Shown here one piece after another: positions 5,473-17,914 of a stretch of DNA of 53,358 nucleotides. Below the pieces are notes generated by a model. The model was not told the origin of the DNA and made no database searches. It saw only the letters and a list, made by a program, of their open reading frames with translations. Numbering within the stretch: the stretch's first letter is position 1; each line of letters begins with the position of its first letter. Location: the NCBI GenBank assembly GCA_946403965.1, contig CAMJBT010000014.1, positions 1-53,358 of the forward strand. Reading direction: 5' to 3'. The stretch comes from an uncultured Pseudobutyrivibrio sp. GTDB lineage: Bacteria > Bacillota > Clostridia > Lachnospirales > Lachnospiraceae. The translations under genes and the position numbers were made by a program.

Positions 5473-6684
5473 TTAAGCTTTTATTTTCACACCTGTACTT
5501 GCGCTTGTTCCGCAAAGCTTATCCACAGATTTGATGATTTCCTGAATTTCAGGTAAATAGTGCTCATGCCTTGTCATGAGCCTATCAATTTCATCACGTT
5601 CTTCCTGCACTATCTTTCTGTGATCCTCTAACCTATCACGTATCTTCTTTCTTCTTTGTACAAGTCTATGGCGACAGTCCATCATGTCCTGCTTATTAAT
5701 GAGGGCATTTACCTGATTAAGCCAAATCTTATCATCAGCCAAACCTATACTTCCAAGAATTTTTTCCAGCTTATCATTGTAAAATTCCAAATCATCATTG
5801 TTTTGAATAAAGCGTTGCTGGTCTCTTACTTTATCCTGATACTGTTCCCAAACATACTGTAACTCTGCAGCAGTGTTCACATTATATTTGTCTTTTGAAT
5901 ATTCAATACTATTAGTTACATTAACAAATTTCATACGTTCTACATTAAGCATACTAATAGCTTGATTTAAATGAACTAGTGCAGCTCTGCTTTCTCTGGA
6001 GAGCTTGTTTTGTCTGATAAAAATAATGAAACCACTAACAGCGCATATAAATAAAACAATAAATATCCAAAGTGAAATATCTACCTTTGTAGCTGTATAC
6101 ATTACATACAAAAGAATAATAAGGGTCATGAAAGAAGTCATTACAGCAATAGCCATATGTTTAAAAAGTCTGCTTTGGCTCTTTAAATCTTCTCTTTCTA
6201 TTTCCCAACGACTCTTATCGCCCTCCAAATTCGAAAGATTTCGTTTAAGCTTTGCCTGATAAATCTCATCAGCTGCAAATCTATTTATAATTTCAGGCAT
6301 ATCATCCTCATCCTGTGATATCATCTGAAACTGTACCTCTGAAATATTTCTTTCTATGGCCCTTGCTTCAAGTATATTCTTTTCTAATTCACATATATTT
6401 GAAGCTGTATTTCTAAGATCCTTCGCCGTTTCTTTTGGAAGATTTTCAATAGTCTTTATATCATTGAGATACCTGGTTACAATTCTGTATTCAAGCTTTT
6501 GACGTTCCATAGCTTTTGTAGATGCTATAATTTGCTCACAGGAATCTAGTATATAATGCTCCAATTTTTTCGGATCTTCCATGCTACCAATGCCTTCAAT
6601 CTGAGAATATACTCTATTGAAAGCATCATCAATCTTAGCTGCCTTAAGCTCCCTTTTCTTTTTTCGAGTAGAAAAAATCCCCAT
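5473..6684 (-). CDS. Uncharacterised two-TM coiled-coil protein of the actin-like cluster
   Basis: 403 aa, no named family recognised. The N-terminus is strongly basic (MGIFSTRKKKREL). About 165 residues of predicted helix/coiled coil precede two closely spaced TM segments (about 178-200 and 206-228), followed by another ~170 residues of charged coiled coil. The result is a hairpin in the membrane with both large domains in the cytoplasm. It is the last gene of a minus-strand run with the TPR, actin-like and giant proteins, after a 102-nt gap holding a conserved hairpin. A membrane-anchoring or scaffolding role for that group is inference. Confidence 0.7.
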   Translation of the reverse strand: MGIFSTRKKKRELKAAKIDDAFNRVYSQIEGIGSMEDPKKLEHYILDSCEQIIASTKAMERQKLEYRIVTRYLNDIKTIENLPKETAKDLRNTASNICELEKNILEARAIERNISEVQFQMISQDEDDMPEIINRFAADEIYQAKLKRNLSNLEGDKSRWEIEREDLKSQSRLFKHMAIAVMTSFMTLIILLYVMYTATKVDISLWIFIVLFICAVSGFIIFIRQNKLSRESRAALVHLNQAISMLNVERMKFVNVTNSIEYSKDKYNVNTAAELQYVWEQYQDKVRDQQRFIQNNDDLEFYNDKLEKILGSIGLADDKIWLNQVNALINKQDMMDCRHRLVQRRKKIRDRLEDHRKIVQEERDEIDRLMTRHEHYLPEIQEIIKSVDKLCGTSASTGVKIKA

Positions 6685-6734
6685 AGCAACCTCTCCCCAT
6701 TTTTACATTAAATAAAAATTATACATGCAAAAAA

Positions 6735-6780
6735 TATGACTTCTTGCGGGCTACTTAAGGAAAAAGCCCACAAGAACCTA
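6735..6780 (-). repeat. 46-nt structured element, copy 1
   Basis: Begins 6 nt after the stop codon of the TPR gene, on its coding strand. A 12-bp stem (TTCTTGTGGGCT with AGCCCGCAAGAA) encloses a T-rich loop (TTTTCCTTAAGT) and is followed by GTCATA and then six Ts. It matches 40 of 46 positions with the copy at 16127-16172. It could serve as a terminator here, but the conserved loop and flanks suggest more than a generic terminator. Confidence 0.75.
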
Positions 6781-6786
6781 TACTAA

Positions 6787-7620
6787 TTATATCTTACAAA
6801 GATTAATATATTCTTCTTTCCAGTCCTTAATAACTCCAGATAAGGAGGAAACTGTATTTTCTCTTTTATTTTCATCATTAACTAGTTCATTAATTGCAGT
6901 ATCAAACTCTATAATATTTTCTCGGGAAGTAACAAGAGAAACGACCTTCAATATCTCATCAACCTCTTCCTTTGAAACCAAATATTTAGAAACATATTCA
7001 TCAAAAAGCTTCTTGTCCTTGCCACATCTAGCAGCATATAGAAGACAATGTAAACTTTGCTTTTTCTGATTTCTTTTGTATGCTTCATCAAAACATTTCA
7101 TAGCCTCATCAAAAAGAAATAACCTTGAAAAAGCACATCCTAGATTGTGATATACATCCCCCTCTACAACCTTTGGCATTGTTTTTGCAACATCATCAGC
7201 AAGTAAAGTTTCGTATTCATATATAGCATCAACAAGTTTTTCCTTGTTCATCAAACGATCTGCTCTCATTTTTTTTCGTTCCGCTTCTGACTTGTTTTCA
7301 AAAGTAGAAATAATAGCAAGAGTATCTTTGATTTCTTTTGCCGAAGCATACCCGTTGGAACCTAATATATGACCTACAAATATGTGCAAAGGAGCGTTAT
7401 TTTGAACAAGACCAACAAGCTCCTGAGCAAGCTTAGGCTGCTTTAATTCTCTTCCAATCCAATTACATAGCTCAGAATTCATTAGCTTTGTAGAAAGCAA
7501 ATAGACATTATTAAGTATAAAGTAACTAAGCTCCTCCAAAGAATAAACATTCAAGGAAGCTTCCTCAATAAAATATGGAGTTGCCGATAATGAATTTTGA
7601 CAATAAATTAATGTACTCAT
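6787..7620 (-). CDS. TPR-containing cytoplasmic protein of the actin-like cluster
   Basis: 277 aa, predicted all-helical, no signal peptide or TM segment. One clear tetratricopeptide unit is visible at about residues 153-190 (VYHNLGCAFSRLFLFDEAMKC), with weaker flanking helical pairs. The N-terminal 100 residues have no recognisable domain. It starts 14 nt after the actin-like ATPase stop, so the two are almost certainly co-translated. A binding or adaptor role is plausible given the TPR. Its own stop is followed within 6 nt by the 46-nt hairpin element. Confidence 0.75.
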   Translation of the reverse strand: MSTLIYCQNSLSATPYFIEEASLNVYSLEELSYFILNNVYLLSTKLMNSELCNWIGRELKQPKLAQELVGLVQNNAPLHIFVGHILGSNGYASAKEIKDTLAIISTFENKSEAERKKMRADRLMNKEKLVDAIYEYETLLADDVAKTMPKVVEGDVYHNLGCAFSRLFLFDEAMKCFDEAYKRNQKKQSLHCLLYAARCGKDKKLFDEYVSKYLVSKEEVDEILKVVSLVTSRENIIEFDTAINELVNDENKRENTVSSLSGVIKDWKEEYINLCKI

Positions 7621-7634
7621 AATGTCCCTAAACT

Positions 7635-8867
7635 TTATTTAATAGTAATAGTATGCTCCCATTTTTTGCCGGAAGCAGGTGCAATTTCTCCAAAACCTAA
7701 ATCTGTAATTACAATAGAAACTGCCACATCAGAAACTGGCCTAGCCTCGATACGAAGACGTGTTGTTCTATTTTCTCGTTTAGGTAAGTCTGTAAGCTCT
7801 AAAACTTCTGTGTGTGCTTCTCTTGATTCTGGACGTTGAATGTAAAATTCGATTTCAGGTTCTCCATCTAAAACCACCTCGCATTCGCCGTTGACATCAT
7901 ACCAACTTTGACCAGCATCAATAAGTGTAAAAAATTTTAATACGTTATTTTCTAAAATCTTAATTGAAAGATTTAACTTTAAGTCGTTATCACCTATGTA
8001 AATAAATGGCCAGTCCCGCTTACCATCCTTGGTAAATCCTGCATAACAAGCTCCTTTAGAGTAAAGATTTTTTCCAAGGAATACCTTTCTACCTCGACAA
8101 AGGTGAGATAAACTTGTCTTCATCCACTCTCCATCAAAGCCGTCACCGCACAAATATACCGACGAATATAATGTGCTTCCAAATGTCTGAGAAATAATGT
8201 CATCAAAAGCCTCGTCCTTGTTTTCTGTTACCTCCCCATGATTTATCATGTTCAAAGTAATAAGCTGTGGTCGAGTATTTTGATTTCGATTAAGTGTAGT
8301 GGAAACTATATTTGAGCCACTGTAATCGAATAAAGCTACATTGTAAATAAATAGCTCTGGCTTTTGTGAAAGAGCGTAATAGTAGAAACATTCATTTCTG
8401 TCTACCAGCATAACCCTGTCTAAATTAATGGAAAGCTTTGAAGCAACATAGTTCATTAGTTCCATCACTTCTAAATTTACTTGTGTTACACAAATAACCA
8501 GCTTTTCAATTTCACCAAGGGCAGCCATTGTGCCAGGGATTGAAAACAATTTCTTGAAAAAAATCACCATCAAATCTCTTGCACTATAATTTTCAGCTTC
8601 TATGACAACCTGTCCGTCTCTAAGGGCAAGATTGTATAACTCTTCCACAAGCACTGCTTCTTTTAGACGACTCATTTTAAGGGCATCTTCCCCGAAAAAC
8701 CACTGTCCCATTCCAAACCTTTTTGCAATGACGGTAGGAATAGAATAATTCTCCTCACCAATAATAGTGCTTATAGTGGCAGGTTCATCCATATTCGATT
8801 TATAAATGCTAAGTACTGTGCTCTTTGAGCTAATATCAATACCTACATAAGCACCCTGTGTATTCAT
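7635..8867 (-). CDS. Actin/Hsp70-fold ATPase-like protein (DUF5716-like)
   Basis: 410 aa. It shows the ASKHA nucleotide-binding layout: phosphate-1 motif GIDISSKST at about 9-17, a GEDALKMSR segment near 59, phosphate-2 motif ALFDYSGSN with Asp near 181, and an adenosine-type motif VYLCGDGFDGEW near 237-249. There is no Hsp70 peptide-binding domain. The last ~120 residues look beta-rich and end after LGFGEIAPASGKKW. I recall this as the DUF5716 family common in Lachnospiraceae; that name is from memory. It sits 55 nt downstream of the giant protein gene and 14 nt upstream of the TPR gene. ATP hydrolysis and polymerisation are untested inferences. Confidence 0.8.
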   Translation of the reverse strand: MNTQGAYVGIDISSKSTVLSIYKSNMDEPATISTIIGEENYSIPTVIAKRFGMGQWFFGEDALKMSRLKEAVLVEELYNLALRDGQVVIEAENYSARDLMVIFFKKLFSIPGTMAALGEIEKLVICVTQVNLEVMELMNYVASKLSINLDRVMLVDRNECFYYYALSQKPELFIYNVALFDYSGSNIVSTTLNRNQNTRPQLITLNMINHGEVTENKDEAFDDIISQTFGSTLYSSVYLCGDGFDGEWMKTSLSHLCRGRKVFLGKNLYSKGACYAGFTKDGKRDWPFIYIGDNDLKLNLSIKILENNVLKFFTLIDAGQSWYDVNGECEVVLDGEPEIEFYIQRPESREAHTEVLELTDLPKRENRTTRLRIEARPVSDVAVSIVITDLGFGEIAPASGKKWEHTITIK

Positions 8868-8922
8868 ACAACTCCTAAAAAATAATTTATAATTCTTAAA
8901 CTAAATAAACCAGCTAATCAAA

Positions 8923-11900
8923 TTAAATAGTAGTAAATAATTCCCGTGTAATTGCATCAAGTCCCTGATATGTTTTTACATCTTCAGCCAGTTCATATAC
9001 TTCTCCATAAAGGCTATGGCGACAAATGCTATTCATCATTGCATAACGTCCCTTCTTTTCATCAAGCTCATCGCTGAGAACAAAAGTCTTTGATTCTAGT
9101 GGCTCATCCGAAACATCCTCGCAATTAATCTCATACTTTAGCTCATCGCCATAAAAGAGAATAAACTGTTTTACATATAGACCGTCATACATTTCAAACA
9201 TATCCTCTTTTTTGAATTTAGCTCCGTTTATCGAATATGTTATCGAAACATTTTTTCGTTTTTCTGTGTTTATTTCAATAAAATGCTTGTCGTAAAGATG
9301 ATATTTCACCTTCAGACGGTTATCACATTTTGCAAAAAATCCAAAATATTGATTTCTTAGTATTGCATCAGCCAGAAGAATATCAAGCATATCGTAGTCA
9401 TCCTCATCCAGCTTGCTTTGACAGCATAAATATTTAAGAAGTGCTATCCTCATGCTTTCATTAAAGCTCTGACCTCTCTTAAAGCGATTATAAATGTAAG
9501 CAAAAATTGTTTCAGGAATTTTTGTACCATTTGCAAGATAATCATGTGCCTCGTAGGTTAAAACCGCCTCAACAATCATCCTATTATTTTTTCGAGAAAT
9601 GTAAGTGTCAAACACCTGCAAAATATCTTCATCAAGGAAATCTCTATAGAGAGCCTGTGTAAGAATACGTTCACCAAACTCTACAACATCCTCCCCCTTC
9701 TCCAATGCATTATCGTATATACGAAGCATCACTGGTGTCGGTCCAACAAAATATTTAATCATATATCGAACCATATCAGTATGTATGAAACCTTGTTTTA
9801 TTAATCCCTCAGTCATAATGATCAAAAAATCATCTGGGGAATCTGGTTTTTGATTAATGAGATAGCGGCAAAGCTTTGTAGTAACTGCAGGCCTTAATTG
9901 TGTACCGTTTGTATGTTTAAGCATATAATAAGCTTCATCATATTTACTTCTCGAAATAAATACTTCAAGCACAGCAGCTATTACTTCAGCACTAAGAGAT
10001 TTCAAATCAGCTTCATTCATAAAATGCTGTTCCAATAAAGGCTCTCTATCTTTGAACCTAAGAACTTCAATAAGCTTTGGATAAAGACTACGTAGATACT
10101 CTGCTGAAATCTGTTTTGATCCCAAAATAAGTTCTGCTGCCTTTACGTCTTCTTCATCATAATCTGAAGATGGCTTATTTGAGTTGAGTCTGTCAATTGC
10201 ATAAGCAAAATTTAACGGAGTCAGTTCTCTTAGTTTCTCTGTATATCCATCTGTATTTAAAATTTCTTCTGTAAAATATGAATCATCATCCACAAATAAA
10301 TAGCCGTTATTATCTTCTAGGAAAATAACACCTTTGCTTCCGATGTAATTTATGTATGCCCTATGATCAGAGATATTGGCAATTGTTGGTGCCTTATATT
10401 CCTCTTGATATAAAAATACTCTTCGTATATCCGGATTGATAACAGCAAGTTTTTTCTTGAAAGAAAGCTCTGAAATAAGCCTTGCAACTTCTTTGTCAAA
10501 AATTCCAAGCTCCATCAATCGCTGGTAACATACCGCAAGATTATCGTCCAATCTACCAAGCTTTAATTGTTCTAATGCGAATGCCTCGATAGCACTCTCA
10601 TATTTTTCATAAGTCTGATAATCATCTTCTTTGTGTAAAATGATATTTGCGTATAATAGAGCTTTTTTATCATAAGATAGATTACTATTATATTTGAAAA
10701 ACATTGTGACAAGCTGAGGAAGCTTATCAACGGAATAAGAAGGCAAAGCATCCATATAAGCTTCAAAAATACCTGAAACATGAAGATTAGATTCTATTGC
10801 CATCTGATACCATTTAAGAAAACTTTCATCTACATATGGAGCCTTTAATAAATATGTGACAATTCCAAGAAGCAGCTGCTTGTCAGGGTAGATAGCATAG
10901 CAAGATTCCAAAATAGGAAGAACTTTTGGATTGAAGGTTCTTTCTGTTTCTAGAACATGCATCATCTGGATAGCAAATTCCCTGGTAATAGCGTTCTTCT
11001 TTTTGGCCCAATTTAGCACTTTTAATGTAAGTTCATTAAACGTAGTGATAAGATATGGATCCTGTACAAAAATATAATAAGCTTCTATGTATAGAAGTGG
11101 TGAATCAAAGCCCTGTTCAACCCACGCAGAAATATCTCTAAGCTTAGCTGTAGGATTTTTTATATATTCTTTGCGAAGGAAAAGTAAAAACCAGAAAATA
11201 TGAGGGTCGTCATTGTGCTCTCTATAAATGGTCTCTATGTTTTCAGTAAGACGATCTACATAATCCTCTTCTCTTTCTATTAAGGTACATATATAAAGCA
11301 AAAATGCCCAGTCTCGGCTTCTCTTATCCTCAATTGTACGTTTTAAATCTTGAATAATCCAAAGTGCTTCCTGTTTTTGATTGTTTGTTACATAAAGGAA
11401 GGCCTTTAAAAGAAGAAGGAAATTATCTGGTTCCTCTTTATCTTCGAAAGATTCAACTATTTCAAGAGATGAAGTACACCACTGACCCGTAGTGATTCTT
11501 CTAAGTCTAAAATCTTCGTATAAACGAAATGCTTTAAGAACCTTTTTATTTTGAATGTGTTCCTCTGATTCTAAAGAAACGCCCTCTTTATCAACAGTAG
11601 CAAGAATAGATATTTCCTTATGAATATCTCTGTAGTCAAAGGAAATTGTTGCATAATTTAATCCAGCATGCATCTTGTCCCTGTGAATGTAATAGCTCAT
11701 GTTGAAAATGGAACCAAGGAAAAAATCTCCGGTAATATGATCTTTTTCAACAGAAACAAAGTCTGCATCAGAAGTGACAGCAATATCGATAAATCCCCAA
11801 GTTGATCGTGTGATTTCGATTTCGCCTTTTACATTTTCATCAACCTCAAAATATCTTCTAGGTTTTTCATCAATGCCAAAAGTCATCTTTGCTTTCAAGC

Positions 11901-12456
11901 CACATGCAACTAAAAACTCATCGATATTTACAGGAGCTATAGGTGCAGCTTTGAAGCCGCGATACAGAAGTCTTGTGCGTTTATCAAGTCCATTAATAAA
12001 ATCTGAAAAACGATCTGAATAGAACAATGTAACAGCTTCGGCAAATCTATTCTGTGCAAACTGAGCGTACTCCTCCAAAGTTTTAATCTCTCCAGTAGAA
12101 GCCACCAACGCTGGATGTACATAGCTGATTTTAAAGGGTATAGTCTTCTCATATCCAACGGCAACCACAATAAAATTGCCTTCAAGATATTCCCCACATT
12201 TAAAAGTACAATCCTCCACAGAATAATCCACTTTAACGCTTACTGCATCAAACCATGGATCGTTTATCTTTATGTATGGATTATCGCAATATATGACACC
12301 ACGAATCCTAACATCATTCAAACTTTTAAAGTATAAACTACCAGAAAAAGGCTCATTAACATAGCATGTTTCATCGAGCTGTTCTCTTTCAAATTCTATA
12401 TTAGGTTTTAAGTCATCGAATTTATCTTCGGAAATACGATAGATTCTTTTTCTCAA
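8923..12456 (-). CDS. Giant beta/helical-repeat protein (DUF5717-like)
   Basis: 1177 aa, cytoplasmic by appearance (no signal or TM). Two beta-sandwich-like domains occupy about 25-115 and 200-290. A long helical region resembling degenerate TPR/HEAT solenoid fills about 310-1050, and a short beta domain closes the C-terminus. I recall similar proteins as DUF5717, next to DUF5716 actin-like proteins. The start is TTG at 12456, chosen because GAGGAG lies 8 nt upstream. A strong promoter at 12509-12536 drives it, and the actin-like, TPR and coiled-coil genes follow on the same strand. Function unknown; a scaffold for the ATPase is the simplest guess. Confidence 0.8.
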   Translation of the reverse strand: MRKRIYRISEDKFDDLKPNIEFEREQLDETCYVNEPFSGSLYFKSLNDVRIRGVIYCDNPYIKINDPWFDAVSVKVDYSVEDCTFKCGEYLEGNFIVVAVGYEKTIPFKISYVHPALVASTGEIKTLEEYAQFAQNRFAEAVTLFYSDRFSDFINGLDKRTRLLYRGFKAAPIAPVNIDEFLVACGLKAKMTFGIDEKPRRYFEVDENVKGEIEITRSTWGFIDIAVTSDADFVSVEKDHITGDFFLGSIFNMSYYIHRDKMHAGLNYATISFDYRDIHKEISILATVDKEGVSLESEEHIQNKKVLKAFRLYEDFRLRRITTGQWCTSSLEIVESFEDKEEPDNFLLLLKAFLYVTNNQKQEALWIIQDLKRTIEDKRSRDWAFLLYICTLIEREEDYVDRLTENIETIYREHNDDPHIFWFLLFLRKEYIKNPTAKLRDISAWVEQGFDSPLLYIEAYYIFVQDPYLITTFNELTLKVLNWAKKKNAITREFAIQMMHVLETERTFNPKVLPILESCYAIYPDKQLLLGIVTYLLKAPYVDESFLKWYQMAIESNLHVSGIFEAYMDALPSYSVDKLPQLVTMFFKYNSNLSYDKKALLYANIILHKEDDYQTYEKYESAIEAFALEQLKLGRLDDNLAVCYQRLMELGIFDKEVARLISELSFKKKLAVINPDIRRVFLYQEEYKAPTIANISDHRAYINYIGSKGVIFLEDNNGYLFVDDDSYFTEEILNTDGYTEKLRELTPLNFAYAIDRLNSNKPSSDYDEEDVKAAELILGSKQISAEYLRSLYPKLIEVLRFKDREPLLEQHFMNEADLKSLSAEVIAAVLEVFISRSKYDEAYYMLKHTNGTQLRPAVTTKLCRYLINQKPDSPDDFLIIMTEGLIKQGFIHTDMVRYMIKYFVGPTPVMLRIYDNALEKGEDVVEFGERILTQALYRDFLDEDILQVFDTYISRKNNRMIVEAVLTYEAHDYLANGTKIPETIFAYIYNRFKRGQSFNESMRIALLKYLCCQSKLDEDDYDMLDILLADAILRNQYFGFFAKCDNRLKVKYHLYDKHFIEINTEKRKNVSITYSINGAKFKKEDMFEMYDGLYVKQFILFYGDELKYEINCEDVSDEPLESKTFVLSDELDEKKGRYAMMNSICRHSLYGEVYELAEDVKTYQGLDAITRELFTTI

Positions 12457-12508: not shown

Positions 12509-12536
12509 AGTATACCACAACATATAGTGTTTTCAA
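12509..12536 (-). promoter_or_regulatory. Sigma-A type promoter of the actin-like cluster
   Basis: -35 TTGAAA (12531-12536), 16-bp spacer, -10 TATACT (12509-12514) with the TGn extension. It lies about 52 nt upstream of the giant protein's TTG start. Confidence 0.7.
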
Positions 12537-12623: not shown

Positions 12624-13712
12624 ATGATAAAACACAAAGATCATTTTCACGGTAGTGATTTAGAAAAAATTGAAAAAATATATGGTATTAAAAAAGAGGA
12701 TATCATCAGTTTTTCAGCTAATGTAAATCCCCTTGGCATTTCTCCTCTTTTGAGAGATGGCATTGCCAATCATATCGATTGCATAACTACCTATCCAGAT
12801 CGTGATTATATTGAACTTAGAAACAGTATTGCAACTTATTGTAAAACTGAGTTGGAAAATATAGTTGTTGGCAACGGCTCCACCGAGCTTATTTCACTTT
12901 TTATTCAAATGATAAAGCCTAAAAAAGCAATGATTCTTGGTCCTACATATTCTGAGTATGAACGTGAAATCAGTTTGGAAGGTGGTAAAACAATCTACTA
13001 TCCTCTTCGTGAAGACAATAATTTTATTCTTGATCCTACTCATTTCATTAGCAAACTCACAGAAGATATAGATATGCTTGTGATATGTAATCCAAACAAT
13101 CCTACAGGCACAGCCATTAATAACCACCACATGAGACTCATTTTGGATGCCTGCAAAGAATGTAGTATTTTTGTTATGGTTGATGAAACTTACGTTGAAT
13201 TTGCAGAAAATATCGATGAGATTTCATCTGTATCACTAACCCGCACATATGGAAACATTGCTATTCTTAGAGGTACTTCAAAATTCTTCGCTGCCCCAGG
13301 CCTTCGTCTTGGATATGCGATTTGCTCAAACACAGATTTAATGCAGCAAGTAAATCAGCGTAAGGATCCTTGGAGTATAAATTCTATTGCAGTGGTTGCT
13401 GGAAATTTGATGTTTAGTGATGAAGAATATATTAATAAAACAAAGATGTTAATAAAATCTGAAAGAGATAGATTATATAATCTTTTTGAACAGTCTGATA
13501 GATATAAGCCTTACAAGCCTCAGGGTAATTTTATGTTGCTTAAAATTCTCGAAGATGGTCTTACAAGCCAAATGCTATTTGACAAGTGCATCAAGCAAGG
13601 ATTAATGATTAGAGATTGTTCTACATTCCCATATTTAGATGAGAAATACATTCGATTCTGCTTCATGAATCCCGAAGATAACACAAAACTTGCCAACCTA
13701 TTACTTAATTAA
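12624..13712 (+). CDS. PLP-dependent class I aminotransferase, CobD/HisC-like
   Basis: 362 aa, fold-type I PLP enzyme. The opening (HFHGSDLEKIEKIYG, then SFSANVNPLG) is the pattern of L-threonine-O-3-phosphate decarboxylase CobD and related HisC proteins. Further motifs are NGSTELI, CNPNNPTGT, the VDETYVEF strand with the cofactor-nitrogen Asp, the Schiff-base Lys in RGTSKFFAAPGLRLGY, and the C-terminal phosphate-binding Arg region RDCSTFPYLDEKYIRFC. No cobalamin or histidine genes are nearby, so the substrate is open. It is a single-gene unit ending in a strong hairpin terminator. Confidence 0.85.
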   Translation: MIKHKDHFHGSDLEKIEKIYGIKKEDIISFSANVNPLGISPLLRDGIANHIDCITTYPDRDYIELRNSIATYCKTELENIVVGNGSTELISLFIQMIKPKKAMILGPTYSEYEREISLEGGKTIYYPLREDNNFILDPTHFISKLTEDIDMLVICNPNNPTGTAINNHHMRLILDACKECSIFVMVDETYVEFAENIDEISSVSLTRTYGNIAILRGTSKFFAAPGLRLGYAICSNTDLMQQVNQRKDPWSINSIAVVAGNLMFSDEEYINKTKMLIKSERDRLYNLFEQSDRYKPYKPQGNFMLLKILEDGLTSQMLFDKCIKQGLMIRDCSTFPYLDEKYIRFCFMNPEDNTKLANLLLN

Positions 13713-17568: not shown

Positions 17569-17575
17569 GAAGTAG

Positions 17576-17914
17576 TGGATCTGACGGGAGTCGAACCCGT
17601 GTCCAAAAGCCAATTCCCGGCCCTTCTACGAGTGTAGTTTGTATTTTTACATTCCCTCCACATGACGCCCACAAACAGGCTGCATGCTTTAGTAGCTTCA
17701 TGATACGCCCATCATCTCAAAGCTTTGACGACGTCGTTTCCTACAGAGTCGAAGTCTGAATCCTAAAGTGTAGGTGCTCTAGGTCAGACTGCCGCAACTA
17801 GGCAGCGTATGCTAAATTATCGTTAGCGTTTAATTTTAAGTTTGGCCATTTAACCCATCGCCATGGGACTCGCTTCTTCCGCTGCATGACCCCTGTCGAA
17901 ACCATGACAGACCC
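17576..17914 (-). ncRNA. ssrA: Transfer-messenger RNA (ssrA)
   Basis: Rescues stalled ribosomes together with SmpB. The 7-bp acceptor stem pairs GGGTCTG at the 5' end with CAGATCC at the 3' end (one G-U). The T-arm reads ACGGGTTCGACTCCCGT, and the conserved 5' block GTCATGGTTTCGACAGGGGTCATGCAGC is present. The discriminator A is followed by CT, so CCA is not encoded and must be added. The open tag frame ends NLKLNANDNLAYAA before TAG; I cannot fix the resume codon. The mature length is about 339 nt. The neighbours smpB and rnr act in the same pathway. Confidence 0.95.

Follow-up and report, generated by a model that had tools for sequence, protein, structure and literature searches.

Introduction

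Yeast Ssz1 is a lidless Hsp70 that has a complete substrate-binding beta domain (SBDbeta), does not hydrolyse ATP and works within a fixed ribosome-associated complex, as set out in passages of PMC7083937. Degenerate Hsp70-like proteins (CnuD) are described in parts of PMC11090510 for the CoCoNuTs, which are restriction systems of the McrBC type, and sections of PMC7159879 describe conflict systems centred on a GAP1-N2 GTPase, in which HSP70 and GrpE genes are accompanied by tetratricopeptide repeat (TPR) or FNIII proteins and, in a subset, by a second HSP70 without the peptide-binding domain. According to these passages, Hsp70 operons with GrpE and TPR components (conflict systems) and degenerate Hsp70-like proteins (CoCoNuTs) are already known. 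The present study concerns a cluster of four genes in a 53,358-nucleotide (nt) stretch of DNA (contig CAMJBT010000014.1, positions 1 to 53,358, assembly GCA_946403965.1), hereafter the window, from an uncultured Pseudobutyrivibrio sp. of the Lachnospiraceae (the window family), order Lachnospirales (the order). Two of the four proteins belong to the Pfam families DUF5716 and DUF5717. An earlier annotation made from the letters of the window (the original prediction) proposed that an actin/Hsp70-fold ATPase and its three neighbours form one complex tied to the membrane. Our preferred reading, with a probability of about 0.6, is that the cluster is a remnant, reduced in place, of a multi-Hsp70 operon that other families of the order have kept.

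The window proteins are members of the DUF5716 and DUF5717 families far above the Pfam cut-offs; these names carry no function. No function for either family was found in a literature search, which yielded a single passing reference to DUF5716, in work on another subject, no link to DUF3731, and no description of the four-Hsp70 operon or of its reduced form. The words Lachnospiraceae and Clostridia are not mentioned in passages of a survey of DnaK paralogues (PMC11019930).

The DUF5716 protein and its relationship to Hsp70

The features of the cluster are as follows.

8923..12456, minus strand: DUF5717 gene, 1177 amino acids (aa), TTG start; an N-terminal part and a long helical-repeat part
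7635..8867, minus strand: DUF5716 gene, 410 aa; putative pseudo-Hsp70 of the Hsp70-B lineage, lidless, without the catalytic lysine and without the GGGT phosphate-2 motif
8226..8231, minus strand: junction at about residues 213/214 of the DUF5716 protein, the point at which the protein lacks residues corresponding to Hsp70 subdomain IIB
7635..8000 (approximate), minus strand: C-terminal region of the DUF5716 protein homologous to Hsp70 SBDbeta, residues ~290-410, with a conserved DxGFGE motif
6787..7620, minus strand: gene of a TPR-like protein, 277 aa; homologue of the long-operon TPR protein (380-415 aa)
5473..6684, minus strand: gene of a coiled-coil protein with two transmembrane segments (two-TM), 403 aa, an optional member; hydrophobic stretches at about 6004-6168

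The family numbers 5716 and 5717, given in the original prediction for two of the proteins, were confirmed by Pfam. The 410-aa protein matched DUF5716_C (5.1e-101, 338 bits against a cut-off of 34.7) and the 1177-aa protein matched DUF5717_N (1.7e-212, 708.2 bits) and DUF5717 (2e-73, 247.7 bits; cut-off 25).

The long operon is represented by that of a one-contig genome (L072), in which DUF5717 is followed by an Hsp70 of 559 aa, a 644-aa protein with a C-terminal GrpE domain (CC-GrpE; Pfam, 3e-13), Hsp70s of 523 and 551 aa, an Hsp70-vWA protein of 692 aa and a TPR protein of 387 aa. The four Hsp70s were termed A, B, C and D in gene order. Hsp70-B of this genome matched DUF5716_C at 1.5e-26, and in profile comparison DUF5716 and Hsp70-B were matched with a probability of 100 (E 2.3e-59, 421 columns). 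Ranked from best to worst, the window-family profile matched B (1e-47), C (2.3e-24), D (1.9e-8), A (2.1e-7) and DnaK (2e-5). Hsp70-B itself matched the DnaK sequences of solved structures at 3.7e-22 across the nucleotide-binding domain (NBD) and SBDbeta, and DUF5716 matched DnaK directly at 1.3e-5; the homology to both domains is strong via Hsp70-B and modest directly. A tree of 76 rows placed all 26 window-family sequences on one branch (support 100/100) together with the Hsp70-B of G003; this genome belongs to another family, has the full gene set and carries the closest B relative within the sample. A, C and D each formed one clade. These comparisons indicate that the 410-aa protein is a descendant of Hsp70-B. 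Its N-lobe and beta domain are still recognisable as those of an Hsp70; the original prediction had noted no chaperone domain in this protein, and the C-terminal homology, established through the longer relative, does not bear that statement out.

Probable decay of the nucleotide machinery

The residues equivalent to D8, T11, K70 and E171 of DnaK, together with the GGGT motif, were present in every row of Hsp70-A (12 rows), C (13 rows) and D (10 rows). In Hsp70-B, D8 was kept in 14/14 rows, K70 in 0/14, and the last G and the T of GGGT in no row. By sequence, this paralogue is already deficient in catalytic residues. In the window family, none of the 26 aligned rows had a lysine at the K70 position and none had GGGT. 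The full set D8, K70, E171, D194 and GGGT is not present, and the nearest glutamate lies two residues off the E171 position. The phosphate-1, phosphate-2 and adenosine motifs, put forward as present in the original prediction, are thus eroded throughout the family.

The distance from the phosphate-2 to the adenosine motif was 60-78 residues in the window family (60 in the window), compared with 135-152 in Hsp70-B and 143 in DnaK. The loss was confined to DnaK positions 192-279, most rows being gapped at 192-199, 207-219, 228-231 and 236-279, and amounts to about 80 residues, which we assign to subdomain IIB by the domain limits of Hsp70. A four-lobed NBD with IIB is not found in the window family, and the lid (SBDalpha) is also lacking: past a motif close to where the beta domain ends, the proteins continue for 22-33 residues, as against 170 in DnaK. 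In passages of PMC4753570 and PMC10825016, GrpE is described as opening the cleft through rotation of IIB, and all exchange factors as targeting this subdomain. The GrpE of the operon is gone as well, and lobe and exchange factor thus appear to have been lost in the same lineage. Of the fold and pocket claimed by the original prediction, the ASKHA fold is backed by the homology to Hsp70, and the pocket is not, since the family lacks the pocket residues and the greater part of one lobe; for the same reason the label "ATPase" is not supported.

The long operon of other families

The order DUF5717-A-CC-GrpE-B-C-D-TPR was found in 14 of 16 other-family loci (12/14 plus 2/2). Extra open frames were interspersed at some of the 16, the D and TPR frames of L060 were each in two pieces, and at several loci DUF5717 was truncated by the fetched stretch. 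Only A, CC-GrpE, B and C were found in L065 and L073, DUF5717 being found in neither. Hsp70-A, B and C have no lid. In Hsp70-D (L072:4495-6573, minus strand) a vWA domain takes the place of the lid, and homologues of similar length occur in other long operons. The operon thus resembles the canonical Hsp70 system (DnaK, DnaJ, GrpE) in the intact catalytic residues of A, C and D and in its GrpE domain, as DUF5716 does in its N-lobe and SBDbeta; it departs from that system in the lidless A, B and C, in the vWA domain of D and in the lack of a recognised J-domain, and the window-family survivor departs further, without catalytic residues and most of IIB. No J-domain was detected by Pfam in any of the four window proteins or the seven of L072, J-proteins elsewhere in the genome not having been sought; HPD tripeptides are present in Hsp70-C and in some flanking frames, in a setting that by eye is not J-like.

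The window-family cluster has no counterpart of Hsp70-A, CC-GrpE, C or D. In the source genome one ordinary DnaK (799 bits) was found, with two further weak HSP70 matches (50 and 32 bits). At one related locus a 628-aa frame upstream of the cluster (L117:3063-4949, plus strand) also matched the ATPase profile and is probably DnaK. The CC-GrpE profile matched 17/245 class genomes, in 16 at the GrpE end only and in one at an internal part; the 16 are taken as ordinary GrpE because their open frames are just 173-235 aa.

A very divergent full operon, with a DUF5717 of 931-1006 aa and barely detected by Pfam DUF5716_C, was present in L197 and L198 (family f22). In both, a divergent aminotransferase and the coiled-coil gene surround the operon, as they flank the cluster in the window. 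The aminotransferase adjoined the long operon in 5 of 11 stretches with room to judge and stood beside the cluster in 53/64 named loci. As the long operon can have the same flanks as the window cluster, deletion in place would account for the short form. The direction of change is inferred to be loss rather than gain, given the position of B in the tree, the degraded motifs and the shared flanks.

DUF5717 and the TPR-like protein

DUF5717 was matched to its other-family form in profile comparison (E 1.7e-86). The other-family homologue is encoded by a pair of genes (about 400 and 900 aa) in 8 of the 9 upstream stretches read, and DUF5717 is a single gene in the window family, in G038 and in family f22. 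The other-family profile matched a designed TPR protein (8.4e-7), and the window-family profile matched a designed pentatricopeptide repeat protein only (0.001). The TPR label given to the 277-aa protein by the original prediction was not borne out by Pfam: the best match, TPR_2 (4e-5), covered one stretch and scored 23.9 bits against a cut-off of 27, and the other TPR models were sub-threshold.

Conservation of the cluster

Two sets of loci were used. The genus sample comprised 26 loci and 25 genera, one of which was represented twice; 25 loci were from the window family and one was from G167, a draft assembly labelled another family and possibly contaminated. The named-locus set comprised the best 80 of 499 relatives, several of its loci being cut by contig ends; its nearest named genomes were Pseudobutyrivibrio and Butyrivibrio fibrisolvens 16/4. 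DUF5717_N was found in 196/200 window-family genomes (163/165 of good quality) and in 4/299 phylum genomes, every one from the window family. DUF5716_C was found in 142/295 order genomes at E 0.001, 134 of which were above the Pfam cut-off.

The DUF5717, DUF5716 and TPR genes were contiguous in all 26 loci of the genus sample, and the coiled-coil gene joined them in 15. The original prediction had expected all four to be neighbours in related genomes, and this holds for the first three genes across 25 genera and for the fourth in those 15 loci only. In the named-locus set, four genes were found in 69 loci, three in 9 and two in 2. The dN/dS values ranged from 0.015 to 0.066 (23 of 40 gene comparisons yielding a value) and, for the two pairs with dS <1 for all four genes, from 0.017 to 0.055, a pattern that suggests purifying selection on the cluster. 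The cluster in G167 (L059, contig C40) is of window-family type in a genome labelled another family, and reflects either contig contamination or transfer.

The two-TM coiled-coil protein

The membrane hairpin of the original prediction was recovered, as two adjacent hydrophobic stretches at residues 173-199 and 194-227. The profile used for counting was built from clean sequences with GltX excluded, and apparent matches of ~485 aa were taken as GltX, from the Pfam scan of one of them (L118). In the 11 genomes without the gene at the locus, searched whole, no match was found in 10 and a partial one (9.2e-4) in G283. The five other-family genomes tested for the gene away from the operon all had it, adjoining a valS homologue in four (ValS by Pfam in one). 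In 4 of the 16 other-family loci (L060, L070, L197, L198) the gene closes the long operon, after TPR, and for this reason the protein may be functionally linked to the machine. It appears to be an old companion, not an obligatory one. As to the tether to the membrane proposed for it, absence of the gene at 11/26 loci, and of any match in 10 of those genomes, leaves the proposal weak.

At four other-family loci (L180, L181, L182, L184) the gene lies near a valS homologue, and in the first three a gene of Mur-ligase type, probably folC, is found on its far side (both by Pfam for L180 only). In L054:4261-7113 (minus strand), the two-TM protein and glutamyl-tRNA synthetase occupy a single 950-aa frame with a charged linker, which could be a fusion or contain an internal start.

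Gene layout, promoter and neighbours

The following features lie upstream of the cluster.

12509..12536, minus strand: sigma-70-type promoter TTGAAA-N16-TATACT, upstream of the DUF5717 gene
12530-12515, minus strand: palindrome-like box ACACTATATGTTGTGG, similar to an NrdR box, within the promoter spacer
12624..13712, plus strand: divergent CobD/HisC-like aminotransferase, outside the machine; a flank common to the long operon in some other-family genomes

The arrangement described in the original prediction, four same-strand genes (minus strand) with gaps of 55, 14 and 102 nt and a promoter before the first, was reproduced. Promoter-like sites across the region were not in excess (34 found, 32.7 expected by chance). 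The spacer element was common to 21 upstream regions of the genus type of the window, in 20 of which (exception L097) it was surrounded by TTGAAA with TATAAT or TATACT; it was diverged or absent in L098 and L101, also named Pseudobutyrivibrio, and the palindrome and promoter were not common to other genera. The palindrome, with ≤2 mismatches, arose in 2/960 shuffles. Tandem boxes similar to it are present elsewhere in the source genome (contig C89), upstream of an ATP-cone gene that is probably a ribonucleotide reductase. No clear second box was found at the operon, the next-best candidate having 5 mismatches. Paired boxes are bound by NrdR, as stated in a section of PMC12051234, and control of the operon by NrdR was not concluded from the single box in the promoter. 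A tmRNA gene is also present in the window (17575-17914, minus strand; tag ANDNLAYAA).

Discussion

The original prediction that the four proteins form one complex is a fair inference for the core trio, as these genes are adjacent in 26/26 loci and are part of the longer operons. We propose that DUF5717, DUF5716 and the TPR protein would still assemble as one cytosolic complex, with DUF5717 as platform, the TPR protein as adaptor and the pseudo-Hsp70 as a scaffold independent of nucleotide. Its lidless beta domain could grip a short stretch of peptide from a partner or client, with no need for a cycle of ATP and GrpE, in kind as Ssz1 does. DUF5716 is most likely a nucleotide-independent scaffold or peptide holder. 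Ssz1, as presented in the passages cited above, seems its closest functional parallel, being likewise lidless with an SBDbeta, although Ssz1 binds ATP and has a J-protein as partner, whereas DUF5716 is without most of IIB and its operon yielded no recognisable J-protein.

Several points weigh against this reading. The direct match of DUF5716 to DnaK is modest and its SBD portion weak. The tree was rooted at its midpoint for display, several of its rows deviate in composition, and some terminal branches are very long. Saturation affected most dS values, and the aminotransferase flank was present in 7/24 genus-sample loci with room. D8 is retained in 22/26 rows and the D194 position is acidic in 21/26 (D14, E7), which is compatible with nucleotide binding. 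The fold, pocket and interfaces are deduced from the alignments, and complex formation, client and physiological role are proposals.

These acidic positions bear on the alternative that the protein is a nucleotide-switched Hsp70-like chaperone or ATPase, with an unusual pocket and exchange without GrpE. D8 is present in 61/61 closer rows as well, a glutamate near the E171 position (E159) is found in 23/26 and 61/61 closer rows, and a GxNLYSKGAC segment after the adenosine motif is strongly conserved. The uniform absence of the K70 lysine and of GGGT (0/26 each), the loss of most of IIB, which supplies part of the adenine clamp in Hsp70, and the missing GrpE of the operon make this alternative unlikely. 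More doubtful is a link to translation, such as the holding of nascent chains or the organisation of aminoacyl-tRNA synthetases. Here the evidence is of neighbourhood alone: a valS homologue was found in 4/26 genus-sample loci and 3/25 long-operon stretches, gltX in 38/80 named loci and 2/26 genus-sample loci, and the two-TM protein shares an open frame with GltX in L054. The analogue Ssz1 acts at the ribosome, according to the same passages on it; the synthetase, however, varies by lineage, and the genes adjoining the cluster in the window are others.

An actin-like filament, or a membrane machine tethered by the two-TM protein, would draw on the ASKHA fold, which is common to Hsp70 and actin, and on the adjacency of the two-TM gene in 15/26 loci. 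It is improbable in view of the SBDbeta homology, of the nearest kin being Hsp70-B and then C among the families compared (Hsp70-A to D and DnaK), and of the genomes with no two-TM gene at the cluster, 10/11 giving no match genome-wide and one the partial match of 9.2e-4. Least probable is a role in conflict or defence, as a module resembling the GAP1-N2 systems, some of which, in the sections of PMC7159879 cited above, combine HSP70 and GrpE with TPR or FNIII proteins much as the long operon combines Hsp70, GrpE, vWA and TPR parts. In a PADLOC scan of four long-operon proteins (TPR, D, C and CC-GrpE), candidate model PDC-M61B matched C (8.7e-11) and D (4.4e-7) over Hsp70 residues, and the TPR protein matched PrimPol (4e-6) and PDC-M71B (4.3e-6). 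These matches fall on Hsp70 and TPR repeats, both of which are common, and the window proteins reached just 0.0048 and 0.026, both for the two-TM protein. The GAP1-N2 systems are centred on a GTPase, but neither a GTPase domain nor an effector was found by Pfam in the four window and seven L072 proteins, among which McrB and McrC of the CoCoNuTs were also unmatched. The presence of DUF5717 in 196/200 family genomes is likewise unlike that of patchy defence genes.

If the cluster is indeed a reduced remnant of the multi-Hsp70 operon, it would offer an origin and a testable mechanism for two DUF families found in nearly all sampled genomes of a dominant gut and rumen family, and the stepwise loss of the ATP cycle of an Hsp70 could be seen as a natural experiment. 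The comparison also brings to light an Hsp70 operon of seven to eight genes, in which four paralogues are combined with GrpE and vWA fusions and with a giant repeat protein. Tentatively, and at somewhat less than even odds, the window family may have converted a machine of four Hsp70s and a dedicated GrpE into an Hsp70 complex free of nucleotide, with the exchange factor and its target lobe lost in one lineage. The complex would have kept the beta domain and would serve as a near-universal, static, peptide-holding scaffold with an important role.

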